Shown here: positions 8,045-58,627 of the stretch, one piece after another
How positions within the stretch are numbered: the stretch's first letter is position 1
Layout: the number at the start of each line of letters is the position of its first letter
Virus record (IMG/VR): IMGVR_UViG_3300021957_003133
Coordinates: 51,467 to 115,466 of that record
DNA: 64,000 nucleotides
Source: a virus
Reading direction: 5' to 3' (one strand)
Notes under the pieces: model-generated
Databases searched by the model: none
Told to the model about the DNA's origin: nothing
Seen by the model: the letters and a program-made list of their open reading frames with translations, nothing else
Program-made: the position numbers and the translations under genes

Positions 8045-8208
8045 GTGAAGAAATAAGCACACAACGTATTGCAATAAGTACAGACGGCGTTGAAATAGAC
8101 AGCAGTCAAGGTGACTTATTGTCAGAAGCAGTCCTACTTGGCACCATTGTTATAGTAGTAGCTGTATTATACATAGGTAAGAAATGGATAGACAGGAAGT
8201 TTAAATGA
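8041..8208 (+). CDS. Small single-span membrane protein
   Basis: A 55-residue ORF with ATGA overlaps at both ends, linking it to radical SAM genes 2 and 3. Residues ~28-47 form a hydrophobic helix (Ala-Val-Leu-Leu-Gly-Thr-Ile-Val-Ile-Val-Val-Ala-Val-Leu) followed by a basic tail, which predicts an N-out/C-in anchor. The position inside the radical SAM run suggests it could tether a neighbour to the membrane, but this is inference. Confidence 0.7.
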   Translation: MSEEISTQRIAISTDGVEIDSSQGDLLSEAVLLGTIVIVVAVLYIGKKWIDRKFK

Positions 8209-11212: not shown

Positions 11213-12503
11213 GAATAGACCAGAAACGCTGTGTATGGCTCCGTGGACTCATACTTACCTATCGCCACAGACTGAACGTAGAATGTGCTGTGCTAGTCGT
11301 GAGGATGCACAATCATTTGAGCAGTATATAGATACCAAAGCTGGCACAGGCAAATACCAACCAATCACTTTAGAAAAACACTGGAATTCAGACCATATGA
11401 AATCAGTGCGTAAACGCATGATGGCTGGAGAAACCTTAAAGGAATGTGCCGTATGTAACGATAAGCTGTTGAATACTGATGTTTACCGTAGTTATTTCAA
11501 CCGAATGTTTAGCGATAAGTATGATAGTATATGGGACACTACAGATGATACGGGCTACACCACAACAAAGCCTGTAAGCTGGGATTATAGATTCAGCAAT
11601 CTCTGTAACTTTAAGTGTCGCACGTGCGGTGACATGTTGTCAAGTGCATGGGAGTCAGAGCAAAGACAGCATAACACTATCAATTGGGATAATCCTAGAA
11701 ACAATTGGATGAAACCCGACATTAGGAAACAGATATCTGAGTTTCAGGACAATCAAATTGAGAAAGAGTTCGCAGATGCTGTAGAATCTCATCAAATTGA
11801 GGAAGTATATTGGGTTGGTGGTGAGCCATTGATGTACGATCAACACTGGAGATACATGAAACGTATCGTTGATTTAGGAGATGGGAAAAATGTTTACGCT
11901 AGATACAACACAAATCTTAGTCGCATCAATTATCGCGGTATCAACCTCTATACTGATATTCTATCTAGGCTACAGGATTGGCAAATATGTGCAAGCCTTG
12001 ATGGTACAGGAAGAATTGGAGAATATATCAGGACAGGTCTCAACTATCAAACGTGGGTTGAAAACTTTAAGGAAGGTCTTAAGGGAGTTACTAACGATCG
12101 TCAAATGAGAATAGACTTTACACTTACCTTACCGGGTATGTTTGAGGTTAAAGAGATGGACAAGCTAGCTTATAATTTAGATAGTGAGATATTGGCCAAA
12201 GTAATATTCAGTTTCACACCAGACATCATTATGAGTCCGTTAGCACTGCCAAGGAAACTATTAGAAGAGTGGATTGATGATATATTAGAATCCAAGCTAT
12301 GTAAACCTGTACTGATAGATATGCTTACCCAACTAAAAACAAGACCTACGTTCGAAGAACAATGGCCTGATACCTATCAAGAAAGTCTTGCAAAAGGCAA
12401 GCGTCGTGTGTTACAATTAGAGAGTATACGTAAAGATGAATTTACTTTAGCGGATATTTTAAAATCAAGGAAAGAAGTATATGAGTGGTATCAATCAATC
12501 TAA
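11199..12503 (+). CDS. Twitch-type radical SAM enzyme 5
   Basis: 434 residues. Cys12-Met-Ala-Pro-Trp, Cys30-Cys31 and Cys83/Cys86 precede the core motif Cys136-Asn-Phe-Lys-Cys140-Arg-Thr-Cys143; Val-Gly-Gly-Glu-Pro follows. The start lies within the end of the SGNH-like gene and the end overlaps the next gene. It is the fifth member of this family in 7.2 kb. Confidence 0.85.
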   Translation: MKQPKNRPETLCMAPWTHTYLSPQTERRMCCASREDAQSFEQYIDTKAGTGKYQPITLEKHWNSDHMKSVRKRMMAGETLKECAVCNDKLLNTDVYRSYFNRMFSDKYDSIWDTTDDTGYTTTKPVSWDYRFSNLCNFKCRTCGDMLSSAWESEQRQHNTINWDNPRNNWMKPDIRKQISEFQDNQIEKEFADAVESHQIEEVYWVGGEPLMYDQHWRYMKRIVDLGDGKNVYARYNTNLSRINYRGINLYTDILSRLQDWQICASLDGTGRIGEYIRTGLNYQTWVENFKEGLKGVTNDRQMRIDFTLTLPGMFEVKEMDKLAYNLDSEILAKVIFSFTPDIIMSPLALPRKLLEEWIDDILESKLCKPVLIDMLTQLKTRPTFEEQWPDTYQESLAKGKRRVLQLESIRKDEFTLADILKSRKEVYEWYQSI

Positions 12504-13563
12504 GGTTTCAGTAACACTAAGAAATCCTTTAGTTCGCGATGATCAAATAACATATGACATCATCCTGAATGATACCCAATTGGCTAAAGACTGGGTTGAT
12601 GCTCTTAAACAGATATTACAAAACAACAATCTATTAGAAAAGAACTTTTGTTTCTTAGGGTTTCCAGATACACAACGTAATATTAAATATCTCAGTAATG
12701 AACTTAAACAAGCTGTCGACACTATCAATCAATACTTCGACGATTACGAGATTACAGAAACGTACACACCTGAAACACTACGCAACGGCTTAGATCCTAA
12801 TCAAGATCTTATGAATCAATTACATAATCATTTTGAAGTACTGCAAGGAACTGTAGAGAATCTTAGTGATTACTATAGACGTGCTGACCACGAAACAAAG
12901 TATGCCATAAGACAGTTAAACATTATCTGTCACGAGTTAGAAAGTTTGATGTTAAGCTTACGTAAAAAAGTTAACGCTCCTGATTGGGTACGTAGCAGTC
13001 AAATAACTACATTTTTACAGTGTGAAAGATTCGAGTTAACACATGAACATAGACAAGGATTCTTAACCAACGGATATGATAGACAGTTTGGCGGTGTTTA
13101 TATGCACTGGACACAGATAGGTAAAACACTGTTTGAAGTATTCAATGATGAAGGCGCTCCAGAACTAACAGATGCAGTATGTGACGCTATAACACACCTA
13201 CAATACTATTCAGGTGAGTTTGATGTTGAATGGGGTAACACTGTTAACAGAGGAGACAGCACAGTGCCTTGGCATAATCAGGCACAAGATAAATTTGAAC
13301 AATGGTTACGAGATAATCAGTTGGATCCTACGAATACTCAATTGAGTTTAGGATATTTGCCGTTGGGCAATATTGATCTTACTACGTTTGGCACAGACGA
13401 TCCCAATGAGATAAGAGAAATACTAGGACGTTACCTTGATATCTATAAAATTAAAGTTGACGGAGTGTCGAATACTTTCGAATACTGCTGGACTGATGAT
13501 GATTACAAGCAACAACAAATTAATAGGATGATTCCAGGATATGATTTTAGTAGCAGGGGGTGA
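12481..13563 (+). CDS. Conserved hypothetical protein
   Basis: 360 residues, soluble, acidic, with helical predicted stretches in the first half (residues ~95-160) and a Trp/Tyr/His-rich second half containing Val-Pro-Trp-His-Asn. No catalytic signature is recognisable. It overlaps the radical SAM gene upstream (23 bp) and the SGNH gene downstream (23 bp), so it belongs to the same pathway. Possible partner protein or scaffold; function unknown. Confidence 0.65.
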   Translation: MSGINQSKVSVTLRNPLVRDDQITYDIILNDTQLAKDWVDALKQILQNNNLLEKNFCFLGFPDTQRNIKYLSNELKQAVDTINQYFDDYEITETYTPETLRNGLDPNQDLMNQLHNHFEVLQGTVENLSDYYRRADHETKYAIRQLNIICHELESLMLSLRKKVNAPDWVRSSQITTFLQCERFELTHEHRQGFLTNGYDRQFGGVYMHWTQIGKTLFEVFNDEGAPELTDAVCDAITHLQYYSGEFDVEWGNTVNRGDSTVPWHNQAQDKFEQWLRDNQLDPTNTQLSLGYLPLGNIDLTTFGTDDPNEIREILGRYLDIYKIKVDGVSNTFEYCWTDDDYKQQQINRMIPGYDFSSRG

Positions 13564-14359
13564 TAGTTTTGTTTGGGGCAGTGAGTTAGGAGACTGCAAC
13601 CATGATCATGTTGAGACTCTTGGTAGTTCTAGTGGACATAGTAGTCTTACATTTCCAGCTATTTTAGGACAAGACTACGAATACCAATGTTGTGCTTATC
13701 CAGGAAACGGTAATGATACTATTGCTAGAAATGTTATTATAGCATGCGAAAAAAATAAAGAACAAAATCAAGCACAAGTAGTTTCAGTAACATGGACTTT
13801 CCCAGGGAGATACGAATTTCATGTAGAAACTAGTCAAGGTGCTAAATGGGAAACTATTAATTCATGGACAGTAGGTAAGAAATATACTGAAGAATCTGAT
13901 CAACATTTAAATGAATTTGTCGAACAATTTAACGAACATGCTGAAAGTCTGGGTATAGTAAAATTTGCTAAATCTTATTTTGCTAATGTTGGACATTTAG
14001 AGTATTGGGAAACTTATACTGCTATTAAAGAAATAGTATATTTGCAAAATTATCTCAAAGCAAATAATATTCAGTATCTATTTACATGTGCAGATGTTGG
14101 GTTTCTTAATAATCACACAATAAAAGTCGCAGATGATACTATACGTTCGCTGTATAATCAAATTGATTTTGACCGTTGGTACTTGTTTCCTAAAGGTAGC
14201 AGAGCAAACGAAACCACAGTACCAAGAGGTTTTTACCAATGGGCATTGGAAAATAAGTATAGTATAGGCCCGATGAATCACCCGCTAGAGAAAGCACATC
14301 GAGATGCCGCTCTATTAATAAAGGATAAATTTAATGAATTGGTTCAAAAAAATAATTAA
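13541..14359 (+). CDS. SGNH-hydrolase-like protein
   Basis: 272 residues. Block I is Val-Ala-Gly-Gly-Asp-Ser-Phe-Val-Trp-Gly, a clear GDS motif at residues 7-9, and block II-like Tyr-Pro-Gly-Asn-Gly-Asn-Asp follows. A C-terminal Gly-Pro-Met-Asn-His-Pro-Leu offers the catalytic His, but the canonical Asp at His minus 3 is Pro. Expected role: esterase, or acyl- or acetyl-ester chemistry on a glycan or peptide. It overlaps the upstream gene and a 33-codon ORF at its end. Confidence 0.65.
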   Translation: MILVAGGDSFVWGSELGDCNHDHVETLGSSSGHSSLTFPAILGQDYEYQCCAYPGNGNDTIARNVIIACEKNKEQNQAQVVSVTWTFPGRYEFHVETSQGAKWETINSWTVGKKYTEESDQHLNEFVEQFNEHAESLGIVKFAKSYFANVGHLEYWETYTAIKEIVYLQNYLKANNIQYLFTCADVGFLNNHTIKVADDTIRSLYNQIDFDRWYLFPKGSRANETTVPRGFYQWALENKYSIGPMNHPLEKAHRDAALLIKDKFNELVQKNN

Positions 14360-14435
14360 TCGAATAAAGATGGAACTTCGATATCGTAAAAAGTTAAAAG
14401 AACTTAAAAAACGAGATCCGTTTATCTATAAATGA
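14334..14435 (+). CDS. Very small basic protein (33 residues)
   Basis: The frame runs from ATG 14334 inside the end of the SGNH gene to a TGA at 14433-14435 that forms an ATGA overlap with the next gene. The product is strongly basic and Lys/Arg-rich, ending Lys-Lys-Arg-Asp-Pro-Phe-Ile-Tyr-Lys. It fills what would otherwise be a 72-bp gap, and the coupling geometry supports translation. Function unknown. Confidence 0.55.
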   Translation: MNWFKKIINRIKMELRYRKKLKELKKRDPFIYK

Positions 14436-15067
14436 AATTACTAACAGTAGGAGATAGTTTTACTTACGGTGAAGAGCTTGTAGATATAAACAATGCTTGG
14501 CCTTACCTACTAGGTAAACAGATAGACTACGAAGTTACTAATCTAGGAAGTCCAGGATGTAGTAATGCCCGTATGATTCGCAATGTTATAGAAAATGCAG
14601 ACAAGCATGATTTAATTATCATTGCCTGGAGTCATTTTGCTAGATTAGAAGTATCAGATGAGAATGGTACTTATGATCTTTGGCCAGGTGGGTCGGGAGT
14701 ATTCTTTACTGGAGAGTTGAAGTATAGGAAAGAACTAATAAACTATGTAAACAGACACCACAATGATGAATATTTGTATAATCAATACACAACTAATATT
14801 GTGCTAGTACAAAAATATTTAGAATCTAAAGGCAAGCGTTACATCATGATGGATACGTTTGGAAATCATCAAGACAAACAAAGACAGTCTAATGGTTTAA
14901 TCAGTCAAGTAAACGATCAGTATTATATTGGGTGGCCAACAGAAAGCATGATGGAATGGACCTATAAAACACCACAAGGTCCAGCAGGACATTTTTTAGA
15001 AGAAGGACATCAAAAAGTAGCAGAAAAAATCAATGAATATATTAGGAATATCGGCTGGGTTTCATGA
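14432..15067 (+). CDS. SGNH-hydrolase-like protein
   Basis: 211 residues, close to the normal length of SGNH esterases. Block I is Thr-Val-Gly-Asp-Ser-Phe-Thr-Tyr-Gly (Ser at residue 8), block II Leu-Gly-Ser-Pro-Gly-Cys-Ser-Asn, and the C-terminal Gly-His-Phe-Leu-Glu-Glu-Gly-His offers the His. Asp at His minus 3 is missing. It shares this layout with the proteins at 10721, 13541 and 53741. Its 3' end overlaps the carbamoyltransferase gene by 35 bp. Confidence 0.7.
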   Translation: MKLLTVGDSFTYGEELVDINNAWPYLLGKQIDYEVTNLGSPGCSNARMIRNVIENADKHDLIIIAWSHFARLEVSDENGTYDLWPGGSGVFFTGELKYRKELINYVNRHHNDEYLYNQYTTNIVLVQKYLESKGKRYIMMDTFGNHQDKQRQSNGLISQVNDQYYIGWPTESMMEWTYKTPQGPAGHFLEEGHQKVAEKINEYIRNIGWVS

Positions 15068-16523
15068 TGCTGGCATGAGTTGTGTGAGTGATGGTGAAAT
15101 TTTATTTGCCGCACACAGCGAACGTTACAGTAGACAAAAACATGATAGCAAACTGTGCAGTGAAATGCTGTTTGATTGTTTGTCACGAACCGGCTTACCT
15201 GATGTTATTGCCTATTACGAAAGACCCTGGGTTAAAAAAACTAGACAACTGTATGCAGGGCAATGGAACTCTTTATGGTCAGATTGGTCAGTGCGTAGCA
15301 TGATCAATGAGATTGATATAGAAGGGGCTTTAAAACATGTACCCATAAAAACTTATAATCATCACCTGTCACATGCGGCCGCTGGCTTTCAAACATCACC
15401 ATACAAAGACAGCACAGTTGTAGTCATTGATGCCATTGGGGAATGGGACACTATTAGTATATGGGACGCAAGATACGATAGTCAAGGGCAAGCAACATAT
15501 AAAAAATTATGGGGCCAAAAGTATCCACATTCAATTGGGTTAATGTATTCAGCGTTTACTAAAGAAGTTGGACTACGTCCTTTAGATGAAGAATACATTT
15601 TAATGGGAATGGCCGCATACGGGCAAAGTCATTTTAAAGACGCATTTAAAACAGTGTTGTTAGATGAACCCACCAGTTTAACATTTAGACATAATCTACA
15701 TCTTGGGTTACCAGATGGTGGTGAAGGTGGCTATGGAGAAAACTTTGATGTAGCCGCTGGGGCACAAGAACTGGTAGAAGAACTTATCAATGAAGTAATA
15801 CGCATATCTAAAAAATTAGGTATAAGCAAGAACTTAACTTATATGGGTGGTGTGGCTCTAAATTGTTCAGCCAATAGAGACCTAGGACAGTATTATAATA
15901 ATATATGGATTATGCCTAATCCAGGAGATGCTGGCTCAAGTTTAGGTGCCGCGGCATTAACATACGGAAAACAATTAAATTGGAAAGATGCTTATTTAGG
16001 ATATGATATCAAAGGTGAATACCCAGTTAAAGATTTGTTAACAGAATTATTAGAAAACAAGATAGTAGGTGTTGCTAACGGACCTGCAGAGTTTGGTCCT
16101 AGAGCTTTAGGCAACAGAAGTTTACTAGCAGATCCAAGAGGGCCAGAAATAAAAGATCAAGTAAACGAAATTAAACGTAGACAAAAGTTTAGACCATTTG
16201 CTCCTGTTATCTTAGAAGAATACGCCAACGAGTATTTTCAAATGCCTTCGGGTTTTCCTACTAGCGATTATATGCAGGTAACAGCCTTATGCAATTTTCC
16301 TAAACAATTCCCAGCAATTATCCATCACGACGGAACTAGTCGTGTACAAACAGTACCTAAAAATTCACGCAGTGGTATAAGACAATTACTAGAAGCTTGG
16401 CATGTATGGACAGGATGTCCTATGTTACTTAATACTAGCCTTAATATTAGAGGAGAACCAATGGTAAACAGTCGCAGTGACGCAGAAAGATTCCAAGAAC
16501 ATTATGGGATTCGTGTGTTATGA
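15033..16523 (+). CDS. Carbamoyltransferase, NodU/CmcH family
   Basis: 496 residues, somewhat shorter than the usual 550-600. The N-terminal actin-like (Kae1-type) domain begins Ile-Leu-Gly-Ile-Ser-Ala-Gly-Phe-His-Asp-Ala and carries the metal site His-His-Leu-Ser-His-Ala-Ala near residue 110. The C-terminal domain has the hallmark Glu-Phe-Gly-Pro-Arg-Ala-Leu-Gly-Asn-Arg-Ser and Ala-Asp-Pro-Arg. The family uses carbamoyl phosphate and ATP to O-carbamoylate sugars or antibiotic scaffolds. In this operon a carbamoylated glycan or peptide is the likely product. Confidence 0.9.
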   Translation: MNILGISAGFHDAGMSCVSDGEILFAAHSERYSRQKHDSKLCSEMLFDCLSRTGLPDVIAYYERPWVKKTRQLYAGQWNSLWSDWSVRSMINEIDIEGALKHVPIKTYNHHLSHAAAGFQTSPYKDSTVVVIDAIGEWDTISIWDARYDSQGQATYKKLWGQKYPHSIGLMYSAFTKEVGLRPLDEEYILMGMAAYGQSHFKDAFKTVLLDEPTSLTFRHNLHLGLPDGGEGGYGENFDVAAGAQELVEELINEVIRISKKLGISKNLTYMGGVALNCSANRDLGQYYNNIWIMPNPGDAGSSLGAAALTYGKQLNWKDAYLGYDIKGEYPVKDLLTELLENKIVGVANGPAEFGPRALGNRSLLADPRGPEIKDQVNEIKRRQKFRPFAPVILEEYANEYFQMPSGFPTSDYMQVTALCNFPKQFPAIIHHDGTSRVQTVPKNSRSGIRQLLEAWHVWTGCPMLLNTSLNIRGEPMVNSRSDAERFQEHYGIRVL

Positions 16524-20565: not shown

Positions 20566-21053
20566 TTAAAAGATATTCGATTCCATGTTTCGTAGGTACA
20601 GTTATGTCCAGGACGTACTGAATAAAGTCTAAAATCTAATAGATATTGCTCTAGATCAATCCGTGTATCACTGAACCAAGCACCTTTTATTCTAGTCAAG
20701 TAAACACGCTCAACTATGTTTTGTGTAGCTTCGTATATTGATTTACCGCCAATAACAAATACTTTCTTGTCTGGAAATCTTTCTTTTATCTCTGTTACTT
20801 CTTGACTGATGTCACCATTGATAGTACGTGCCTGTATAACATTAAGTTTACGATTAGTAACTACAAAATTAGCCCTATTAGGTAATGGATTCGGCATCAT
20901 TGGGTCGTCCCAAGTGTTACGACCCATGACTACAATTTGATTTTCTGTGTGTTTTTTAAACTGATATAAATCTTCGCTGTTCTTAGGCCACGGCAGTGTT
21001 CCGTTATTACCAATACCGCCTTGACTCGTTGATGCTAATATACTACAGATCAT
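20562..21053 (-). CDS. folA: Dihydrofolate reductase
   Basis: 163 residues. Gly-Gly-Ile-Gly-Asn-Asn-Gly-Thr-Leu-Pro-Trp (M20-loop region), Val-Val-Met-Gly-Arg-Asn-Thr-Trp and Val-Phe-Val-Ile-Gly-Gly are diagnostic DHFR blocks. It reduces dihydrofolate produced by ThyA. The ATG overlaps the preceding stop (ATGA), with AAAGGA upstream. Confidence 0.95.
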   Translation of the reverse strand: MICSILASTSQGGIGNNGTLPWPKNSEDLYQFKKHTENQIVVMGRNTWDDPMMPNPLPNRANFVVTNRKLNVIQARTINGDISQEVTEIKERFPDKKVFVIGGKSIYEATQNIVERVYLTRIKGAWFSDTRIDLEQYLLDFRLYSVRPGHNCTYETWNRISFN

Positions 21054-21403
21054 AATCCTTTAAGTGCCTTGTCTGTAGCAGGTTGTACTTCATGTTGTAC
21101 CTTGTCGATATCAACAAAAAAGTCAACATTCTTAATGTAAATATCAAGTTCGTTGAACTTTTCGTCGAGCATTGACTCGATATCATCTGGATCTTGCCCA
21201 TCAGATATCAAATCTTTAACATTAATAGTAATTTGAGTTCCATCAACCAATGATACCAATATTTTTTGTAGTATACTTATTGGTACTTCTTTCTTGTCAA
21301 CTCCGTTAACTATGTCCTGCCAGCTCTTTCTTTTATTGATATTGAGCTTTTTAGCTTTACTGCGTTTACGCGGTTGCTTTGGTTTTTTTGGATTTTCCGA
21401 CAT
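21050..21403 (-). CDS. Conserved hypothetical protein, basic N-terminus
   Basis: 117 residues. The first 35 are Lys/Arg/Pro-rich (possible nucleic acid contact); the rest is acidic with Val-Asp-Gly-Thr-Gln-Ile-Thr-Ile and a Pro-Asp-Asp-Ile-Glu helix. The start lies 38 bp inside the preceding gene and the end couples to folA. Function unknown. Confidence 0.65.
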   Translation of the reverse strand: MSENPKKPKQPRKRSKAKKLNINKRKSWQDIVNGVDKKEVPISILQKILVSLVDGTQITINVKDLISDGQDPDDIESMLDEKFNELDIYIKNVDFFVDIDKVQHEVQPATDKALKGL

Positions 21404-22055
21404 TTTTAGCCTTTTTTGCTTTTGGTTTTAAAGATTTCGCCTCACTTTTTAAACGTGTTGCTTCTGCTAACAATGTCTTAGCCTGAGCCTCCATCTGTTT
21501 AGCTTGTGATAGGCTCATTTCAGCTAAGTCAGAATCTGATAATGCTTTATCTCGACCAGCAGGTTGATTACCACCAACACTACTATTTACCGGCGGAGGA
21601 GTTTGTCTATACGCTTCACCCACCTCACGACCTTGATTTTTATCTGGGTCTGCCATTCCACGACCTGCATCAATCTCAGCCATCTTTTTAATAGCTTCAT
21701 CACCACCTGCCATCTGATCTAAGATTTTATTTAATTCGTCTAAACGAACGCTAGATTTAGCATTAGGTGTTAATATAACTTGTTTAGTCTGTACTTTTTT
21801 AAAAAATCCACCACCGTGTATTGATCCAAGAAGATTTTGACCATCTGGCATAATATGTCTAAATAAGGCATCAGCTAGTTGTTGTGCTTGCTGTCCTTCT
21901 TGACCTTCTACAACTTTCATTACTTCGTCATGTATCATTGAAGGTAGCATGTCGCTATACATAACCAACGCCATGTGATCTTCTCCTGGTACTTTATTAT
22001 ATGCCACGATAACTTTTTTCTCTCCGTGTCTTCCAATATGTTTTAATATAGCCAT
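21366..22055 (-). CDS. Conserved hypothetical protein with coiled-coil, Lys-rich tail
   Basis: 229 residues. The N-terminal ~120 residues are a compact domain (Gly-Arg-His-Gly-Glu-Lys-Lys-Val ... Asp-His-Met-Ala-Leu-Val-Met-Tyr). A Pro/Gly linker follows, then a heptad-like Ala/Leu/Glu/Lys coiled coil and a Lys-Ala tail. It lies downstream of the VWA/MoxR pair and is probably cotranscribed with it. A scaffold or adaptor role is possible; function unknown. Confidence 0.65.
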   Translation of the reverse strand: MAILKHIGRHGEKKVIVAYNKVPGEDHMALVMYSDMLPSMIHDEVMKVVEGQEGQQAQQLADALFRHIMPDGQNLLGSIHGGGFFKKVQTKQVILTPNAKSSVRLDELNKILDQMAGGDEAIKKMAEIDAGRGMADPDKNQGREVGEAYRQTPPPVNSSVGGNQPAGRDKALSDSDLAEMSLSQAKQMEAQAKTLLAEATRLKSEAKSLKPKAKKAKNVGKSKKTKATA

Positions 22056-22357
22056 TACTTTTTCTCCGTAGTTTTTGCTTGTTCGGGTGCTGTTTGATTT
22101 GGTGTTATAGCACCAACACTTGTTAAAAATTTAATTAATTTATTATATAATTCACCAACCTGTGCCAGCTCGTCTGCTTGGAATGCACCTCTTTGTGACG
22201 TTAAGTTTATTATCTGAGCAACTGTAACTAAGTCTGTTAGTGTTAGTCCTATTGCATTTTCTGGTGTTACATTCTGTTGAGTAGTACTTGGTTTAGCCTT
22301 AGGCTTACTTTTTGTAGTAACCTTTGCTTTTGATTTTACTTCTTTCTTTGTAGCCAT
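22055..22357 (-). CDS. Conserved hypothetical protein, Lys-rich N-terminus
   Basis: 100 residues. Residues 1-27 are Lys/Thr/Ser-rich and disordered; residues ~37-85 form helices (Leu-Thr-Asp-Leu-Val-Thr-Val-Ala-Gln-Ile-Ile). AAGGAG precedes the ATG at suitable spacing, and the stop overlaps the next ATG. Function unknown. Confidence 0.65.
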   Translation of the reverse strand: MATKKEVKSKAKVTTKSKPKAKPSTTQQNVTPENAIGLTLTDLVTVAQIINLTSQRGAFQADELAQVGELYNKLIKFLTSVGAITPNQTAPEQAKTTEKK

Positions 22358-22420: not shown

Positions 22421-22711
22421 TTATGACGGTAAATTTTTATCTAGTGAAGGAAGTACAAGACTAAAGTAAGTAGCTTCGCCATGCAACTCAAAGCCTACTA
22501 TTTGCTTTCGATCAACTTTACCAGAGTCTGCAACTACATCAATGTTTCCTACATAAAAACGCCCTCGGAGATTCTCGTAAAGCCAATCTGATATTTGCTT
22601 ATTTGTTACTCCAGATAAGTTAATTATAACTTGTTCGAAGTGTGGAGGTAGGTGGGCTAATTCTCTAAGCTGATGTACATTGAGTGGATTTGGAGTACCA
22701 TCTTTAAGCAC
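22421..22711 (-). CDS. Hypothetical protein downstream of the VWA gene
   Basis: 96 residues, alpha/beta pattern, with no recognised motif. The start overlaps the VWA gene stop by 8 bp, indicating coupling. The 63-bp gap after it holds only the ribosome binding site of the next gene. Confidence 0.6.
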   Translation of the reverse strand: MLKDGTPNPLNVHQLRELAHLPPHFEQVIINLSGVTNKQISDWLYENLRGRFYVGNIDVVADSGKVDRKQIVGFELHGEATYFSLVLPSLDKNLPS

Positions 22712-23996
22712 TATCTTTTCCTAAATCATAATATGTAGTAATACCAAACGGTGCTTCGATTGTAGTTGATCCGTGTATCACAAACAGTGTATCACAGTAG
22801 TTAGGATCTCCCCATGAATCCCATGGATAACCATCTGTAAACATCACAAACTTTTTAGGTTCGAGACCTTCGGATTTCATGTATTCCCAATTACTGTCAA
22901 AGTCAGTACCACCACCACCGATACATTCATAATCTAACAGTTCGTCGATGTTATCTTCTGTGAATATTTGTGGATTATGTACGGCTGTATCGAAGCACCA
23001 TATATGTAAATTAAAACTACCAAATGCCTCCATGATGCCTTTAACTTCGCTTTTAATGTTATGCAGTGTTTCATCACTCATCGAACCAGATGTATCAATT
23101 GAAAGTGCGATGTCAATCTTTTGTTCTAAATCGTTGCCCGGCAGTATAGCATCCATGTGCCATCCTCTACGACTAGGACGGGCAAATGTATAGTCTGCTT
23201 TGATAGTACTTAATAACTGCTGTTGTAGCAACTCGTTCCAATTTAATTGTGGTGCAGTTAAATCTTTAATCATTTTCCTTACACCACTAGGTAGATTATC
23301 AGCACCCGAGCTTTGTGCGGCTGTCATCACAGCTTCTTTCATTTCGTCTCTGATCTCTTTTCTCTCAGCCGCTGATATTTTCGGCTTAGCACTGCTTTTA
23401 TCTTTGCCATCTCCATCCCCGTCTTTACCTTTACCGGAATCACCTTCGCCATTTTCTTCTCCATCCAAATGTTCATCTATTAATTGATCTAATAGATCAT
23501 CTACATTAATTTTCTCAGCATTTTCGTATAAGTCATCATACACTTCCTCAGCACTCATATTACGATACTTTGTATCAAACAAACCAATTGGAATCTTTTC
23601 ACCAATACGTTGATCTACTAGGTCTTGATTTACACAATAGTCGTCAGCTATGTTCCATAACCTAGGATCTCTGTCTCCACGTCTTCCCATATGATCATAG
23701 ACGCAGTGTAACACTTCGTGACCAATAAGAAACTCTAATTGTTTACTTGGTAATGTTTTAATAAATTCTGAATTGTAGTAAAACTTACGACCGTCTGTTG
23801 CGGCTGTTCCACACCATGCATCAGCGTTAACGATTTCTAAACGTGTAGCTAGATTACCAAAGAAAGGTGCTTTTAGTAATAGTGCGATACGAGCACCAAT
23901 GATTTTCTCACGTGCATCAGCATCAGTTTTTGGATTTGTTTTACAACCTACGAAGTTTTTAAATTCTTCTTTGTTTGCTGTGGTGTCTTTACTCAT
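22704..23996 (-). CDS. VWA-domain protein with N-terminal metallopeptidase-like domain (DUF2201 type)
   Basis: 430 residues. The N-terminal domain has Gly-His93-Glu94-Val-Leu-His97-Cys-Val-Tyr-Asp-His, an HExxH zinc site with a nearby further His. The middle is acidic and Gly/Asp/Lys-rich. The C-terminal domain opens Ile-Ala-Leu-Ser-Ile-Asp-Thr-Ser-Gly-Ser-Met-Ser, the MIDAS motif (DxSxS) of VWA-like domains. This is the DUF2201 layout, usually encoded beside MoxR ATPases, as here. Such pairs act as chaperone-like machines that insert metals or remodel complexes. It has its own promoter 30 bp upstream. Confidence 0.85.
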   Translation of the reverse strand: MSKDTTANKEEFKNFVGCKTNPKTDADAREKIIGARIALLLKAPFFGNLATRLEIVNADAWCGTAATDGRKFYYNSEFIKTLPSKQLEFLIGHEVLHCVYDHMGRRGDRDPRLWNIADDYCVNQDLVDQRIGEKIPIGLFDTKYRNMSAEEVYDDLYENAEKINVDDLLDQLIDEHLDGEENGEGDSGKGKDGDGDGKDKSSAKPKISAAERKEIRDEMKEAVMTAAQSSGADNLPSGVRKMIKDLTAPQLNWNELLQQQLLSTIKADYTFARPSRRGWHMDAILPGNDLEQKIDIALSIDTSGSMSDETLHNIKSEVKGIMEAFGSFNLHIWCFDTAVHNPQIFTEDNIDELLDYECIGGGGTDFDSNWEYMKSEGLEPKKFVMFTDGYPWDSWGDPNYCDTLFVIHGSTTIEAPFGITTYYDLGKDSA

Positions 23997-24026
23997 TGTC
24001 GGCTCATTCCTTTATTGTATATATGT

Positions 24027-24055
24027 ATTATACTGTCAATCTAACCAAAAGTCAA
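24027..24055 (-). promoter_or_regulatory. Sigma70-type promoter of the VWA gene
   Basis: TTGACT (24050-24055), 17-bp spacer, perfect TATAAT (24027-24032), about 30 bp before the ATG. The spacer starts with TTTGGTTA, shared with the promoter at 26632. Confidence 0.85.
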
Positions 24056-24057
24056 CT

Positions 24058-24129
24058 AAAAAGGAGGAAGGATGCTCTAGGTCCAGCTTGTAAGTTAGGA
24101 GCAGTTGGACCGATTGAAACACCCTTCCT
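24058..24129 (-). terminator. Structured RNA, probable terminator after the MoxR gene
   Basis: Read on the minus strand, 24129-24120 and 24074-24065 form a 10-bp stem (one G-U pair that would be A-C on the plus strand). It encloses a second hairpin, GGTCCA/TGGACC (24111-24106 with 24085-24080), extendable by 2 bp past a mismatch. CC and five T residues follow (24062-24058). It starts 5 bp after the MoxR stop. It may be a bulky rho-independent terminator or an unrecognised structured RNA. Confidence 0.5.
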
Positions 24130-24134
24130 GTGAA

Positions 24135-25226
24135 CTATGCTACTGCTTGAACGATATACTTACCAAAGCGTTTATGAAACTCATCAAATGATTTTACTTT
24201 GTTTGGAATAAATGGCAAGTTGTAAACAGTTAGAGCTACTCTCACTCCCATAACAGTAAGCTCTGTTGTAAAGTTGTCCATCATAAATCTAAAGAAATTA
24301 TCTACCATGGTATGCCATACTTCATCTTTCTTATCGGTTTTCTTATTATAGGCCTTGAGCTCATAGCACATCGACACAGTCAGAGAATACATAGCTGATA
24401 CTTCTTTTACTTCTAAAGTCTTTACTTTTCCCTCTAAGATCTCAGTGGGATTAGGCATCTTACCTGCAATCTTTCTATGAGCCATAAACTTAATAGCAGT
24501 ACCATCTCCAACAGTACCACTTACTAGATCAGTTTCGACATCAGTAGGAAGATCGTCCCCTAATAGATCACTAACAAATGTCCATGAACGAGGCGTAGCA
24601 AAAGCACGTGAGCTTGATTTAGGATCAAAGTCAAATAAATCTTGTTTAGCAAACGACACGTACCCTACAACATCTTTATGTATGCCATTACTAACTGCCC
24701 ACTTCTGCCACGACTCAAAATCTACTCTCATTTCTAAATGCACAAAACGATTACTTAGTGGTGCTGGCATTTTATAAGTAACACCTTTATCACCTTCTCT
24801 GTTACCAGCGGCAACAATAACAACGTTATCTGGAAGTTCGTACTTACCAATACGTCTGTTTAACACTAGCTGATAAGCCGCGGCCTGTACACTAGGAGCC
24901 GCTGAGTTCATCTCATCAAAGAATAATACTACGATAGGATATTTTGCGGCTAACTCTTTGCTTGGAAGATCAATTGGAGGTGCCCAATCCATTAGACCGT
25001 TGTCTTTGTTATAAAATGGAATACCTCTGATATCTGTTGGATCCATCTGACCTAAACGTAGATCAATCATATGACCTTTCATTTCGTCAGTAATACTTTG
25101 CACTAATTCTGATTTACCTATACCTGGAGGCCCCCAAAGAAAGATTGGACGCTTACGATCAAAACATCTACTTATTGCTACTTGTGCTTCTTCACTTGTG
25201 ACTGTTCTATTCTCTGTTGCTGACAT
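24135..25226 (-). CDS. MoxR-family AAA+ ATPase
   Basis: 363 residues. Walker A is Trp-Gly-Pro-Pro-Gly-Ile-Gly-Lys-Ser (residues 31-39). Walker B is Val-Val-Leu-Phe-Phe-Asp-Glu-Met-Asn. Ala-Ala-Gly-Asn-Arg (sensor 1) and Leu-Ser-Asn-Arg-Phe (arginine finger region) follow. MoxR ATPases act with VWA partners as chaperones for metal-cofactor enzymes or membrane complexes, and the partner lies just downstream. TAGGAG precedes the ATG, and its own promoter lies 46 bp upstream. Confidence 0.9.
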   Translation of the reverse strand: MSATENRTVTSEEAQVAISRCFDRKRPIFLWGPPGIGKSELVQSITDEMKGHMIDLRLGQMDPTDIRGIPFYNKDNGLMDWAPPIDLPSKELAAKYPIVVLFFDEMNSAAPSVQAAAYQLVLNRRIGKYELPDNVVIVAAGNREGDKGVTYKMPAPLSNRFVHLEMRVDFESWQKWAVSNGIHKDVVGYVSFAKQDLFDFDPKSSSRAFATPRSWTFVSDLLGDDLPTDVETDLVSGTVGDGTAIKFMAHRKIAGKMPNPTEILEGKVKTLEVKEVSAMYSLTVSMCYELKAYNKKTDKKDEVWHTMVDNFFRFMMDNFTTELTVMGVRVALTVYNLPFIPNKVKSFDEFHKRFGKYIVQAVA

Positions 25227-25271: not shown

Positions 25272-25300
25272 AGTATAGCACCAAATTGACTATTTGTCAA
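25272..25300 (-). promoter_or_regulatory. Sigma70-type promoter of the MoxR gene
   Basis: TTGACA (25295-25300), 17-bp spacer, TATACT (25272-25277). The -35 region is part of an inverted repeat TTGAC-5nt-GTCAA (25286-25300) that could also be an operator. Confidence 0.85.
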
Positions 25301-25307
25301 TCACTCT

Positions 25308-25484
25308 TTAATGTAACCCGATCGGTGCATCATACACCACAGTCAATCCTTGATCTGACTTTCTCCTCATATATTCAGCCATCATTATTACGCCATTGAC
25401 AATATGTTCGACTTCTTCCTGGGTTTCTATTGGTTCTCGATCTCCCCAAATAGCTTTTACGATACGTTCTTGTTCTTCAGTCAT
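25308..25484 (-). CDS. Small hypothetical protein
   Basis: 58 residues from ATG 25484, which has AAGAGGA at ideal spacing overlapping the previous stop; a 27-bp longer start lacks this. Acidic N-terminal helix, no motif. Function unknown. Confidence 0.65.
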   Translation of the reverse strand: MTEEQERIVKAIWGDREPIETQEEVEHIVNGVIMMAEYMRRKSDQGLTVVYDAPIGLH

Positions 25485-25485
25485 A

Positions 25486-25734
25486 TTAATCCTCTTTTTC
25501 AAATAATTCAAACTGTTCAGGTAAACTATATACTTTTACCATCTCAACCAATGGATCGTTAAAGTCTGTTTCAATTAATTCTGGGTCGTCATAGTAGTCA
25601 TAAAAGTCACCAGTGTCACTGTCCTCAATATCACCACTGTTAACTTTTTCCCAAGCTTCTTTCTCAGAGTCTGCCTTGACATATTCGTATTCAGTATAAA
25701 TTACTCTACGTTCAAATGTATAATTATTAGCCAT
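25486..25734 (-). CDS. Small acidic hypothetical protein
   Basis: 82 residues from ATG 25734, which overlaps the upstream stop as TAATG. It begins Met-Ala-Asn-Asn-Tyr-Thr-Phe-Glu and has a Tyr-Val-Lys-Ala-Asp-Ser-Glu-Lys-Glu-Ala-Trp block seen in small phage proteins with a DpnD/PcfM-like beta-alpha fold. The second half is very acidic (Asp-Phe-Tyr-Asp-Tyr-Tyr-Asp-Asp). A nucleic-acid mimic is conceivable, but there is no direct evidence. Confidence 0.6.
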   Translation of the reverse strand: MANNYTFERRVIYTEYEYVKADSEKEAWEKVNSGDIEDSDTGDFYDYYDDPELIETDFNDPLVEMVKVYSLPEQFELFEKED

Positions 25735-25880
25735 TAAAAAATAATAATTCCTTTTAAACTTAAATATACTGCGGACAAATACCATAATAACACAGTTCCA
25801 GATCCTACGAATACTATTATAAATCCCAAACTACATTGAGTATCTAAGGCGTCTTCTTTATCTTGTTTACAGTCTCTCAT
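25734..25880 (-). CDS. Small membrane protein (48 residues)
   Basis: The frame starts at ATG 25880 (ATGA overlap with the gene upstream) and ends at TAA 25734-25736 (TAATG overlap with the gene downstream). Residues ~17-41 are hydrophobic (Ser-Leu-Gly-Phe-Ile-Ile-Val-Phe-Val-Gly-Ser-Gly-Thr-Val-Leu-Leu), one or two short membrane spans. Function unknown. Confidence 0.65.
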   Translation of the reverse strand: MRDCKQDKEDALDTQCSLGFIIVFVGSGTVLLWYLSAVYLSLKGIIIF

Positions 25881-26146
25881 TTTTTAAACAATCTGGTAAC
25901 CAGATCGATAGCCTCTTGTTTAGTTGTAGTTTCTGAAGAATTAAGTTCATCTAGTTCCTTTAATAGTTTTTTTCTTTCTTCACTGCTTAACTCCTTCAAC
26001 CTTGGCAGTATCACCTGATCATAGAATTCGCGTCGTTCATTTTCTTTTTTAAGTGTTGTATGTTTTTCAGTTCCAATAAGATCCCAAACGACAAAAGCCA
26101 AAATACATAAACCAAGCCACTCGTACCAAGTAAAGTTAAATTCCAT
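25877..26146 (-). CDS. Membrane-anchored helical protein
   Basis: 89 residues. Residues ~7-24 form one transmembrane span, followed by a charged Lys/Glu helix with heptad character (Leu-Lys-Glu-Leu-Ser-Ser-Glu-Glu-Arg-Lys-Lys-Leu). It is coupled at both ends (ATGA-type overlap at the 3' end, 1-bp overlap at the 5' end). A cytoplasmic-facing membrane protein; a role in lysis or membrane remodelling is only a possibility. Confidence 0.65.
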   Translation of the reverse strand: MEFNFTWYEWLGLCILAFVVWDLIGTEKHTTLKKENERREFYDQVILPRLKELSSEERKKLLKELDELNSSETTTKQEAIDLVTRLFKK

Positions 26147-26580
26147 TATGATATCACCTTGCCAGTGAAAACATCAACAACTTCTTCATCACCAAACTCA
26201 GCACGCATTTCCATTTGCTCTTCTTCTGAGTAACCATGTTTCTCACGCATAGCTTGATAACGTCCAAGAAACTCTTGAGTTTCAATTGAGTTTTGTTTAG
26301 TTGAACGCTCAAACATTTCCCAAGTAATTGTACCGTCAACCACAGCCATTTCTAAGATGTCTGTTGGAGGAATGTTATTTGATGATATCCAACGAACTTC
26401 ACCTTGTTTACCAAGTTTCCATTCCTTGTTACCTAACACAGCAACACCGTCACGGTGCCATTCACCTTCTGTTACAGAACCACCTCTGATTGCTTCGCCT
26501 TTGTAGTTTAATTTTAGTGCAGTAGAGTTGTATTTTTCTTGTAGTATTTCTAGTGTTGGATTTTCAGTTGTGTGTGTCAT
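26146..26580 (-). CDS. Conserved hypothetical protein
   Basis: 144 residues, soluble. It contains Trp-His-Arg-Asp-Gly-Val-Ala-Val-Leu-Gly and a C-terminal helical Glu/Met-rich region. Start with TTAGGAG about 10 nt upstream, in the same leader style as the MoxR gene. First gene of a promoter-led group. Function unknown. Confidence 0.65.
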   Translation of the reverse strand: MTHTTENPTLEILQEKYNSTALKLNYKGEAIRGGSVTEGEWHRDGVAVLGNKEWKLGKQGEVRWISSNNIPPTDILEMAVVDGTITWEMFERSTKQNSIETQEFLGRYQAMREKHGYSEEEQMEMRAEFGDEEVVDVFTGKVIS

Positions 26581-30932: not shown

Positions 30933-32015
30933 TTATTCCCATCCTATTTTCTCCCAGGGTACGTTTTTATTACCAAAGTGTCCGTAAACACAGTTCTCAC
31001 TATAGTTATTATACTTGAATAAATCAAATCTGTCAATGATTCCTAACGGTGTTAAATCAACATTGGATCTAATAAACTTTTCTATAGAACGATTATGCCC
31101 ATTTGATTCTATGTATATTGATGTAGGTTCTTTAACACCAATAGCATAACTTAACTGTATTTGACACCAGTCAGCCATTTCACTAGCTACTACATTTTTT
31201 GCTAGCCAACGAGACATATAAGCCGCCGAACGATCTACTTTAGTTGGATCCTTACCGCTAAATGCGCCTCCACCGTGTGGTGCCCAACCTCCATAAGTAT
31301 CTACGATAATTTTTCTACCTGTTAATCCCGAATCTCCATCTGGACCACCTACTACAAAGTTACCAGTAGGATTGAGATGCCATACAGTATCATCATCTAC
31401 CAGATGCCCTAACACTGATTGTGCAATCAGTTTTGTTTCTTTTCTAGCCTCTTCACAATCGCCTTCAGTGTGTTGAGTGCTTATTACCACTTGGTCGATA
31501 CGCTGTATTTGATCACCTCTATATTCAACACTGACTTGACTTTTAGCATCTGGCAAGAATATATCATTGTTTTGTCTTGCTTGCTTTAGTCGTTTAAGTA
31601 TCTCATGGCTGTAATAGATAGGTGCAGGCAAGTATGCTTCATTATCTCTATTAGCATATCCAAACATAATACCTTGATCACCTGCCCCAAAATCGTCTGT
31701 ACCTAAGGCAATGTCAGCTGATTGGCTATGTATATGATTGTCTATTTCTAATGTATTCCAATGGAATCCTTCTTGTTCATAACCAATCTTTTTTACTGTA
31801 TCTCTAACTATTTGATTAACATCAACAACATTAAAGTTTTTAACTTCACCAGCTAGTGTTACGTGATTTGTTGCTACTAATGTTTCAATCGCTACTCTTG
31901 TTGTGCGATCACCTTCTGTTAACCCAGCATCTACTAAGGCATCGGATATCTGATCTGCTACTTTATCTGGATGTCCGTCTGATACTGATTCACTTGTAAA
32001 TATATATTTGTCCAA
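30933..32015 (-). CDS. metK: S-adenosylmethionine synthetase
   Basis: 360 residues (bacterial MetK ~384). Glu-Ser-Val-Ser-Asp-Gly-His-Pro-Asp-Lys (residues 9-18), Gly-Ala-Gly-Asp-Gln-Gly and Gly-Gly-Ala-Phe-Ser-Gly-Lys-Asp-Pro-Thr-Lys-Val-Asp-Arg-Ser are the ATP/methionine-binding blocks. It makes SAM, which the window's seven radical SAM enzymes, methyltransferase-like proteins and SpeD-like enzyme would consume. It ends next to the Lys-rich gene and starts 1 bp after queE. Confidence 0.95.
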   Translation of the reverse strand: MDKYIFTSESVSDGHPDKVADQISDALVDAGLTEGDRTTRVAIETLVATNHVTLAGEVKNFNVVDVNQIVRDTVKKIGYEQEGFHWNTLEIDNHIHSQSADIALGTDDFGAGDQGIMFGYANRDNEAYLPAPIYYSHEILKRLKQARQNNDIFLPDAKSQVSVEYRGDQIQRIDQVVISTQHTEGDCEEARKETKLIAQSVLGHLVDDDTVWHLNPTGNFVVGGPDGDSGLTGRKIIVDTYGGWAPHGGGAFSGKDPTKVDRSAAYMSRWLAKNVVASEMADWCQIQLSYAIGVKEPTSIYIESNGHNRSIEKFIRSNVDLTPLGIIDRFDLFKYNNYSENCVYGHFGNKNVPWEKIGWE

Positions 32016-33708: not shown

Positions 33709-36700
33709 TTAAAAACTCCATTGTAAAGAAACTCCGACGATGTTATTAGTTTCGCCTTCTTGATTTAAGTAATTCAATTGATGTTCCCCATAAGTTACTA
33801 GTTCTAAATCACTATCATCACTTTTAAATTTATAATACATACCTACATTATATGCATTTACATCTGGTGACATATCAACTGAACTTCTATCATATGCTAT
33901 GCTACCATCTCTATAGTACCCAACTGGTACACTAACATCAACAGTACCTTCGTGTATAGTAACGGGCTGACTAAATGTAGTACCAATACTGTGTTCATCC
34001 ACAGTGTAGTCTAATCCTACATTCCAGCTGTATGATTGTGTGTCACTGACGTCAGTTACTAGTCCTGTTTTATTCATACCACTTTGTGTGTATCCATACC
34101 ACACACCCCCAAACATGCTTAGTCTCTTATTTAACTTCTGGGTACCAGTTATGTTAGTGTATGTGGTATAACTGTCTTCCATTTCACCTAAGGCACCATT
34201 AATTTCGTTACCCATCCAAGCTTGATCTTCGTTTAGCATACCAAAACCAACTCTTACTGATAAATCATTGGTATACTTTGTGGTGTGCCCAAATTCAAAG
34301 TTACCGACACCAGTGTCTTGATTCATTTTCATAGTCATATCAATAAATGATGTACCATCTTGATCTGTTGCTAAACTAACCTTGCTACTTGAAGTATAAT
34401 AATTTAGATTATCATATGGATTATGGTCTGTAAAGAACTGGCCTTTGCTTATTGGATTAAATGGTGTAGCTTTCTTTTTCTTAGTGTTACTTCCGTAACT
34501 CATGTCAACATAATAATCACGACCAAACTCATCAGTAACCATAACACTGCTTAACGCACCTACATCTGATAATCCGTCTGAACCACTTGCTAAAAATGAT
34601 CCACTTATAGGAATAGTTTTTCCATATCTACCATCTACAGGAATACCAACAACACCATATGGTCTGGTAGCCGCTTCTAAATCTAGCAGTCCAGCACCCA
34701 TTATGTCCTTATCATACCCTGGTAAATCTTTATTAGCAGTAGCAGTTAATAATTTAACGATATTACTACCGGTCATTAACGGCCATTGTTGATGTATAAT
34801 AGCAACAGCACCCGAAACAACTGCGGCCGCTTCTGATGTTCCTGTACCTATTACATACCCATCTCCACTGGTATGTCCTGGACTGTACATGTTGCCTGGT
34901 GCTAGTATATAAAAATCACTCATTCTATATGTGTCATTACAATTACCATCACTGGTAACATTGAACCCTTGGCATATATGTCCGGCCTTGTTACTGTAAC
35001 TAGCAACAGTACCTGCGTCAATATCATATGCACCAACTACTAGCATTTGTCCGTTCATATACAGTGAACCGTCTTCTCGGGTAGCATAGGCCATTGGAGC
35101 TGGATTTTCAGGAAATGCTAGCCCCGAGTTACCAGCCGAGACAACAACAACCATTTCACTATTGCCTAAAGCTGAAGACCATCTTTTAGGATCCTCGTTA
35201 TTATAAAATCCTGTGCTTCTTCTTCCGGTATGGTAATATTCTATGTATTTAGGATCACTGTTGCTCCAACTTCCATCTTTTAGTTGTACCCACTTACTTT
35301 GATAGTTATTAGAGTATCCTGCGTTGGCACTTATATTTGCTACAGTAGCATCTATACTAGCACCCCAAGCAATAGCATCTCTGGCTTGACTGAATCCGAT
35401 CCTACTACTATTAGTTACTTTGGCTATAGCTAGATCAGCGTCAGGGGCAACACCAACCATGCCAACACCATCTCTACTTGCTCCTGCGATACCAGCCATT
35501 TTAGTACCATGGCCGACATTGTCGATGATGTCCGTTTCCCCTCTAAGGAAGTTCTTTTTATCTGTTATCCTTCCTTTGAATTCATTATGTTCTTCATTGA
35601 TACCACTGTCAATGATAAGAATTTTACTGCCCTTACCTGTATACCCTCTATCCCAAGCGGATTGAGCTTTAATTGCACTTAAAAAGTTGTCATTTGTTTT
35701 ACCAGGAGCAAGATCATCAGCAATATATTCTCGTTCAAAATCTGTCCTAGTATCTACAACCTCTTCTTCAACAGGCTCTTCTACTGTAGTTTCTTCTTCA
35801 ACAAGCTCTTCTGTATCACCGTATACTGAAGCTAATAATCGAGCCTCCTCAGCTAACCTTGCATCTTCTTCTGCTTTTAATTCGGCTTCTCTGGCCGCTT
35901 TAGCATCTGCAACTTCTTTGGCCGCAATTTCTTCTGCTGTACGTACAGATTCTAATTCATCAGCAATACGTTTAGCCTCGGCTTCATCAGCAATACGTTT
36001 AGCTTCTAATTCATCAGCTATTCTTTTAGCTTCAGCGGCATCGGCTATTCTTTTTGCTTCTAGTTCGTCAGCAATACGTTTAGCTTCTAATCTATCGGAT
36101 TCTTCTTTAGCGATTCGAATTGCTTCGGCTTCGTCAGCTAGTCTTTTAGCTTCGGCTTCGTCAGCTAGTCTTTTAGCTTCTAATTCATCAGCTAGTCTTT
36201 TAGCTTCAACGGCATCAGCTAACCTTTTTGCTTCTAATTCATCAGCTATTCTTTTTGCTTCTTCTGCTAATCTAGCAACTTCTGCCAACCTTGCTATTTC
36301 TGCAAGTGCTAGTTCATCAGCTATTCTTTTAGCTTCAGCTTCTTCTGCTAATCTTTTAGCTTCGGCTTCTAACCTGGCAACTTCAGCTAATCTAGCCTCT
36401 TCAGCTATTCTTGCAAGCTCAGCTAATCTAGCCACTTCTGCTAAACGTGCTTCTTCAGCTACCCTTGCGATTTCAGCTAATCTAGCAACTTCAGCTAATC
36501 TAGCAATTTCATCTAAACGAGCAACCTCGGCCAATCTAGCAACCTCTGCTAACCGTGCTTCTTCAGCTAATCTGGCTTCTTCAGCTACCCTTGCAACTTC
36601 TGCTAACCGTGCTTCTTCAGCTACCCTTGCGATTTCAGCTAATCTAGCAACTTCTGCTAAACGTGTTTCCTCAGCTTTCAATCGGGCAATTTCAGCTAAT

Positions 36701-37053: not shown

Positions 37054-37086
37054 CAAATACCCTTTGATTAATTAAGATACTAGTAT

Positions 37087-58626: not shown

Positions 58627-58627
58627 A

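Follow-up and report, generated by a model that had tools for sequence, protein, structure and literature searches.

A MoxR/NorQ-type ATPase and a DUF2201 VWA/metallopeptidase protein encoded side by side in a virus contig: a candidate early protein-remodelling pair of phages

The stretch of DNA analysed here (64,000 nucleotides, hereafter the window) is the second part of the 115,466-base virus contig IMGVR_UViG_3300021957_003133 and covers positions 51,467 to 115,466 of that record. Two adjacent genes on its minus strand encode, in order of transcription, a MoxR/NorQ-type AAA+ ATPase and a DUF2201 protein (hereafter the VWA protein), which has an N-terminal zincin-like domain and a C-terminal von Willebrand factor A (VWA) domain with a metal-ion-dependent adhesion site (MIDAS). 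A preliminary description made from the sequence alone had placed such a pair here, and the open reading frames (ORFs), the Pfam domains and the matches to PHROG 1297 and PHROG 1314 agree with it. Here we present the features of the two proteins, their conservation, promoters and genome position in phages, and the proposal that they may act early in infection as a two-component protein-remodelling machine. We take the window phage to be a member of a clade of T4-like large phages, because the gene for the T4-type capsid protein Gp23 was found in 10 of the 16 large relatives introduced below.

The ATPase and the VWA protein

The ATPase matched the Pfam families AAA (6.9e-9) and AAA_3 (1.8e-6; 28.3 bits against a cut-off of 27), both over cut-off, the second of which we take to be the MoxR family, as well as PHROG 1297 (1.6e-98). 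Walker A, Walker B, sensor 1, the arginine finger and sensor 2 were inspected and all are present: Walker A residues G32, G35, G37, K38 and S39, Walker B residues D104 and E105, and residues N142, R160 and R213 are invariant in 27 ATPases. The motifs are also kept across 11 members compared (the window, eight isolate phages and two contigs from metagenome-assembled genomes (MAGs)), save for the first Walker A glycine, which is missing in N4 and Axy11. Mutation of the ATPase motif in homologues, named in the preliminary description as a reason to doubt its reading, was not seen; the catalytic motifs are intact in the relatives compared.

When the ATPase model was searched with Foldseek, the first 16 PDB rows were all NorQ or CbbQ, the best being NorQ (several of them NorQ-NorD complexes) and CbbQ2, with 12-17% identity and TM-scores of about 0.4-0.55. 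Using VIA-align, the NorQ/CbbQ matches (Z 12.9-14.3) were tied with dynein and Clp AAA domains. Regarding solved relatives found by sequence, the best was midasin (2.5e-9), and no NCBIfam match above cut-off was obtained for the ATPase. Two other identities were considered and rejected. As a defence protein, the best PADLOC match was DolB (1.5e-5), covering the AAA part only; as the phage cobalt chelatase, PHROG 249 ('porphyrin biosynthesis', presumably CobS) gave just 4.3e-5 over the AAA core.

The VWA protein matched DUF2201_N (putative metallopeptidase domain; 1.5e-38) and DUF2201 (VWA-like; 3e-16) in the right order, with 133.4 and 60.1 bits against curated cut-offs of 23.2 and 26.4 (PF13203 and PF09967, respectively), and PHROG 1314 with 2.3e-107. 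The zinc site H93, E94, H97 and H102 (HExxHxxxxH) and the complete MIDAS (D301, S303, S305, T364 and D388) are invariant in 42 clade members. The two locus sets together gave 117 distinct VWA proteins, of which 112 carry HExxHxxxxH; the five ORFs that do not are all N-terminally incomplete, four of them at contig ends and one (L135) within its contig; simple pattern counts gave DxSGS in 117, GxT in 116 and TD in 115. The MIDAS is kept in all 11 members compared and HExxHxxxxH in 10, the window included. The exception is Atu_ph07, whose VWA gene (L083, 8232-9521) encodes HQxxHxxxxH, i.e., the catalytic Glu is replaced by Gln and the His residues stay. This Gln form suggests that some members of the family can do without cleavage.

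The VWA fold was found by VIA-align with a Z of about 12 over residues 290-427, the rows spanning residues 263-427; as the fold matches cover the C-terminal half only, the zincin-like domain assignment rests on Pfam and the motif. With Foldseek, the VWA domain matched, among others, the MIDAS domain of midasin in complexes with ubiquitin-like (UBL) partners. Searches by sequence yielded no meaningful solved relative (best E 0.15), and neither PADLOC nor NCBIfam gave a match to the VWA protein. At one locus (L025) the VWA/metallopeptidase gene is tandem-duplicated after the ATPase gene (8355-9587 and 9929-11239), and the extra copy keeps HExxHxxxxH, DxSGS and TD.

PHROG 1314, the RefSeq entry for N4 gp25 and several relatives bear the label 'HNH endonuclease'. 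N4 gp25 (L087:11164-12306) matched DUF2201_N (3.1e-87) and DUF2201 (1.4e-46), and no HNH domain was found by Pfam in the window protein (E<=1) or in eight further VWA proteins including N4 gp25 (E<=0.01). Since DUF2201 domains are present and an HNH domain was not detected, the label is very probably wrong for this family, and its correction would stop the wrong annotation in RefSeq records such as that of N4 gp25.

Table 1. Features of the locus (window coordinates, listed in order of transcription). Counts of relatives refer to loci with enough flanking sequence (eligible relatives).
Feature	Position	Strand	Remarks
Sigma70-type promoter of ATPase gene, TTGACA-17-TATACT, TG before -10	25272..25300	-	
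MoxR/NorQ-type AAA+ ATPase, 363 aa	24135..25226	-	Pfam AAA/AAA_3, PHROG 1297; N4 gp24 family
Terminator-like bipartite hairpin and T run, directly after ATPase stop	24058..24129	-	fold z -2.5
Sigma70-type promoter of VWA gene, TTGACT-17-TATAAT	24027..24055	-	
DUF2201 protein, 430 aa, N-terminal zincin-like and C-terminal VWA with MIDAS	22704..23996	-	Pfam, PHROG 1314; N4 gp25 family
p96, small protein overlapping the VWA gene end	22421..22711	-	downstream, same strand, in 36/70 eligible relatives
p100, small protein, PHROG 13789	22055..22357	-	downstream, same strand, in 65/66 eligible relatives
p229, PHROG 15894, conserved N-terminal ~125 aa	21366..22055	-	downstream, same strand, in 60/60 eligible relatives
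p117, small protein	21050..21403	-	downstream, same strand, in 58/58 eligible relatives

Conservation, promoters and genome position

The main set of relatives comprised the best 80 of 196 IMG/VR relatives matched with the VWA protein. The ATPase gene lies upstream on the same strand in 77 of these 80 loci; two of the three loci missing it have less than 2.6 kb of upstream sequence, and in the third (L059) it is located about 10 kb upstream, again on the same strand. The gap between the two genes (stop codon excluded) ranges from 2 bases to 4.8 kb with a median of 479, and is at most 200 bases in 20 of the 77 loci; with gaps of up to 4.8 kb, the gene order is thus kept even with other genes between. 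A second set of 24 records was composed of 16 of the 17 IMG/VR contigs of at least 100 kb among the 80 loci and eight isolate genomes. Both families were found in all 24, which had been selected for carrying one pair member (N4 by name) and some of whose IMG/VR records look like near duplicates. Escherichia phage 4MG carries the two genes about 4 kb from each other and on different strands. Across the 11 members compared, the identities of the ATPases and of the VWA proteins are correlated (Spearman 0.80, 55 pairs), as expected of any co-inherited genes.

A tblastn survey of 50,697 phage records (E <= 1e-5) gave 752 records for the VWA protein and 816 for the ATPase, some weak matches among the latter possibly being other AAA+ proteins; the two families are very widespread in phages. 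Among the matches listed were N4-like, rV5-like, RaK2/121Q-like, Vibrio, Rhizobium and Aeromonas phages, and phage G and Thermus phage phiFa, examined directly, carry the pair as well. N4 gp24 and gp25 (Schitoviridae) are the same pair (PHROG 1297 and PHROG 1314) in the same gene order, yet with just 24% identity to the window proteins. As both genes are present in N4, a tractable coliphage, their function is directly testable. PHROG 1297 also matched 14 of 14 control genomes and is partly a general AAA+ profile, PHROG 1314 matched five and PF13203 two of them; scores are far better for the pair members of the 24 records (4e-76 or lower) than for the controls. Regarding three MAG contigs from one genome scan, both genes are present in two (L090 and L091), the former of which additionally has p96, p100, p229 and p117; we take these two contigs to be phage contigs inside bins.

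The pattern TTGAC[AT]-N16-18-TATA[AC]T occurs 12 times in the window, compared to a mean of 0.47 and a maximum of 4 in 100 first-order Markov shuffles. Eleven of the 12 strong promoter-like sites are on the minus strand, and two are situated directly upstream of the ATPase and VWA genes (Table 1). A looser promoter scan of 10 kb gave no excess (30 sites, 34.8 expected). For the relatives, sigma70 sites scoring at least 11/12 were recorded within 180 bases upstream, counting distinct upstream regions only. Such a site precedes the ATPase gene in 46 of 60 and the VWA gene in 45 of 63 distinct relatives (0.3 expected in each case), which bears out the earlier claim of an early promoter for each gene in the form of strong promoter-like sites. 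None was found before 56 p100, 55 p229, 55 p117, 31 DHFR and 37 p95 genes; the pair is not alone in having one, as 11 of 20 5'-3' exonuclease genes are also preceded by such a site.

In the ten records with the Gp23 capsid gene, 61 sigma70 sites of at least 11/12 were counted in 212 kb around the pair versus 5 in 191 kb around the capsid gene, and the T4-type late motif TATAAATA occurred 2 times around the pair versus 26 times around the capsid gene (all raw counts; two of the records, G006 and G015, look near-identical). The pair and the capsid gene are 71-82 kb apart in nine of the ten records and 14 kb apart in the tenth (G002). In N4, the RNA polymerase genes gp15-16 lie on one side of the pair and the replication genes on the other, and a dCTP deaminase gene comes next after it. 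Promoters, scarcity of late motifs and position would together constitute the signature of an early region, promoter class being used as a proxy for timing. A purely late role is argued against by the location of the pair in a region of early-type promoters, in most of these records 71-82 kb from the capsid gene.

A 13-bp stem with an inner hairpin, followed by a T run, lies just past the ATPase stop codon; 3 of 200 shuffles fold as well as this structure, and a consensus terminator scan did not list it. A hairpin and T run within 140 bases after the ATPase stop were present in 41 of 61 distinct relatives versus 9.4 in shuffles, although part of them might fall inside the following gene. The structured terminator that had been described between the two genes is accordingly confirmed as a terminator-like element. 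Two hairpin subgroups were modelled. In the ten members of subgroup 1 (L062, L064, L066, L067, L069, L072, L074, L077, L045 and L030) the hairpin comes directly after the ATPase stop, the outer stem is changed on both sides at 5 of 17 pairs, with a small covariation term (-0.76), and the inner hairpin hardly varies. The corresponding RNA model gave 17 matches (E <= 1) in 1.57 Mb from 80 selected sources, 14 of them on the plus strand, of which 13 start at the ATPase stop and the other (L051) at the truncated end of a contig; the model had been built from ten of these 14, L073 is a weak match (E 0.32) among the four that were new, and the remaining three matches are known sites read in reverse.

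In subgroup 2 (L026, L029, L032, L033, L061, L068, L075, L080, L081 and L046) the sequence TAAG is invariant, and the 22 matches of its RNA model all lie no more than about 22 bases from an ATPase stop. Nine of these sites had gone into the model; among the 13 others, four are weak (E above 0.2). Neither model matches the window; L002 and L004 have hairpins similar to the one in the window. Rfam gave no match in the window, and in six relatives it gave tmRNA (transfer-messenger RNA) and tRNA matches elsewhere only. We interpret the hairpin as a conserved terminator that ends the ATPase transcript, and it may have a regulatory role. Separately, the tmRNA match in the viral contig of L066 (L066:3579-3909) reached 138.5 bits with beta_tmRNA and 133 bits with tmRNA_permuted.

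Prior work and proposed function

Iyer et al. (2021, PMC7824862) described a MoxR ATPase and a VWA protein with an N-terminal metallopeptidase in jumbo phages; compared by description, the pair of their group 2.2 has the same two-gene architecture as the window pair. A 2009 list for N4-like roseophages gave N4 gp24 and gp25 as an AAA and a vWFA protein without known function. Because of this listing and the description of the exact architecture in 2021, the window pair belongs to an architecture already described for phages and is not new. Relative to the parts of the publications that were compared, the conserved early promoters, the linked p100-p229-p117 block and the position-specific hairpin are new, and so is the evidence against the label 'HNH endonuclease'. 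Acidianus two-tailed virus p618/p892, cited in both PMC7824862 and PMC4660213, is another viral MoxR and VWA pair, which differs from the window pair in being without the peptidase domain and in acting in tail development (cited text of PMC7824862). In a 2007 paper, the MoxR pair of Bacillus phage 0305phi8-36 was termed a 'metalloprotein chaperonin', its family relation to the window pair being by name only. An experimental role of the two families was not found in the open-access literature searched.

The window pair resembles NorQ/NorD and CbbQ/CbbO in the Foldseek matches of the ATPase and in the presence of a VWA partner with a MIDAS, the identity of the window ATPase to NorQ and CbbQ being only about 15%; the mechanism is drawn from these systems by analogy. 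In a NorQD-type complex, the VWA partner engages a hexameric ring by way of a pore finger and the C-terminus. To our knowledge, neither NorD nor CbbO has a zincin domain of the DUF2201 kind. The N-terminal part of CbbO has no known homology (PMC4660213). In CbbQO, every tested MIDAS mutant lost rubisco activation and an acidic rubisco residue was required, and the proposal was that the VWA MIDAS binds an acidic residue of the client and that the ring remodels this client (PMC4660213). For NorQD, the ring was proposed to twist and stretch the NorD linker, allowing metal insertion (PMC13036017).

Reasoning from these systems, we lean, if narrowly, towards the view that the pair is an early two-component protein-remodelling machine working like NorQ/NorD or CbbQ/CbbO. 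The ATPase would assemble as a MoxR/NorQ-type AAA+ ring, and the DUF2201 protein would be its adaptor, with the metal of the VWA MIDAS docking on an acidic residue of the client; the zinc-site domain might hold, trim or give metal to the client while the ring twists or pulls. Both proteins would be made early, each off its own host-sigma70 promoter, and because each gene has a promoter of its own, we propose that the two proteins could be supplied at independent levels. The client would most likely be a host protein or a phage protein of replication or nucleotide metabolism rather than a virion protein or a radical S-adenosylmethionine (SAM) enzyme.

Several observations weigh against such an early machine. 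Promoter class stands in for timing and is no measurement of it. The models of the ATPase and the VWA protein are middling, with predicted local distance difference test (pLDDT) values of 74 and 77, respectively, and a predicted TM-score (pTM) of 0.53. The AAA profiles are weak beyond the window clade: with Pfam AAA, N4 gp24 falls just short of the cut-off, and nothing in Pfam matches the 4MG ATPase at E <= 0.01, although PHROG 1297 matches both. The pair of Cronobacter phage GAP32 sits closely after virion structural genes. Virion mass spectrometry of phAPEC6 lists the ATPase gp265c with six peptides, which is probably the ATPase considered here, judging from its spacing to thymidylate synthase as compared with GAP32. 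A MoxR-like ATPase, alike by name alone, is listed in the virion mass spectrometry of jumbo phage UFV_DC4, and the annotation of the PA5oct ATPase bears the note ESI-MS/MS (electrospray ionization tandem mass spectrometry).

The GAP32 arrangement and the three virion preparations (PA5oct by its note) speak at the same time for a chaperone of virion assembly with proteolytic processing, as proposed by Iyer et al. for the group 2.2 jumbo phages, a proposal with a precedent in the archaeal virus (PMC7824862). We consider this role rather unlikely for the window pair. The virion list of phAPEC6 also contains thymidylate synthase, a RecA-like protein and SSB, i.e., non-virion enzymes, and that of UFV_DC4 contains GroEL and UvsX, its authors asking for confirmation. 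Early-type promoters and few late motifs surround the pair and the reverse holds around the capsid gene, which is distant in nine of the ten records, and the N4 pair is found among RNA polymerase and replication genes. The families also occur in N4-like and rV5-like phages and in a Thermus phage. Promoters and position in the window family hence point away from the published virion-assembly proposal and towards an early role.

A further alternative is a split AAA+ metalloprotease, in which the ring would feed the client to the zincin domain for cutting, with host or phage regulators as early targets. FtsH combines an AAA+ ring and an HExxH zinc protease in a single membrane-bound chain, and the split enzyme would resemble it in two chains; the AAA+ class of FtsH differs from that of the window ATPase. 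The near-universal HExxHxxxxH of the VWA proteins and the early-type promoters are consistent with this alternative, whereas the HQxxHxxxxH of Atu_ph07 tells against it, and we regard it as doubtful. Its most specific form is that a protease expressed from the two sigma70 promoters at the start of infection would unfold and cut a specific host protein, would be common to the otherwise unrelated N4-like, rV5-like and T4-like large phages and phage G, and would have its ATPase message ended by the conserved position-specific hairpin, which may be regulated; this form we hold to be more doubtful still.

The preliminary description had suggested that the pair may help to assemble Fe-S or metal enzymes such as radical SAM proteins; as to its other suggestion, a refitted host complex, the observations speak neither for nor against it. 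The radical SAM family PF04055 was matched in 17 of the 24 records, namely in 15 of the 16 large IMG/VR relatives (up to 14 times per record) and in only two of the eight isolate genomes; as the set consists of pair carriers only, this comparison tests necessity alone. The co-occurrence looked for was thus present in the window clade, where it is most plausibly a trait of that clade, and did not extend to most isolates. No PF04055 match was obtained in N4, Axy11, 4MG, phiFa, phage G and PA5oct, all of which carry the pair; PA5oct is not a clean negative because it has a coding sequence annotated as QueE-like radical SAM. Metal insertion by MoxR-VWA partners such as NorQD (PMC13036017) and the 2007 term 'metalloprotein chaperonin' agree with a maturation role, but since N4, Axy11, 4MG, phiFa and phage G keep the pair without a PF04055 match, radical SAM enzymes are an unlikely general client and this reading is very improbable.

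Neighbouring genes and further observations

In the sense of transcription, four small genes follow the pair (Table 1), as had been described, together with the suggestion that their products may be partners. None of p96, p100, p229 and p117 gave a meaningful Pfam match. A second locus set was based on p229 (best 80 of 579 relatives, of which 77 were examined; some contigs are common to the VWA-based set). Starting from p229, the VWA gene was found upstream on the same strand in 72 of 77 loci, the other five having less than 6 kb of upstream sequence, and the ATPase was seen in 65 of 77. Within the isolates, p229 is present in PA5oct, Atu_ph07 and GAP32; it was not found in N4, Axy11, 4MG, phiFa and phage G, and p100 and p117 were not found in the 30 kb of N4 searched. 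N4 differs from the window in having no p229 in its genome. The suggestion of partnership therefore stands in part: p100, p229 and p117 are linked to the pair in nearly all relatives with enough sequence and may be its partners in large T4-like phages, but as p229 was not found in the five phages just named, these proteins are outside the core machine. The small ORFs at 25308-26580, upstream in transcription, are poorly conserved (2-11 of 67 loci).

Several other genes of the window were recorded. Four proteins encoded in a run at 5311-16523 match radical SAM PHROGs, and a Nol-like carbamoyltransferase is encoded further on; an S-adenosylmethionine synthetase is encoded at 30933-32015 and a B12-binding radical SAM protein at 37962-39842. 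An 1115-aa protein with a subtilase domain (33709-37056) has one identical homologue among the 80 loci, the flanks of which mostly end nearer to the pair. The ORF at 55719-56573 (284 aa) opens with a HicA toxin-like stretch (residues 12-59). At 57892-58647 the phage contig encodes a fusion of the sulfur oxidation carriers SoxY (4.5e-25) and SoxZ (1.6e-16).

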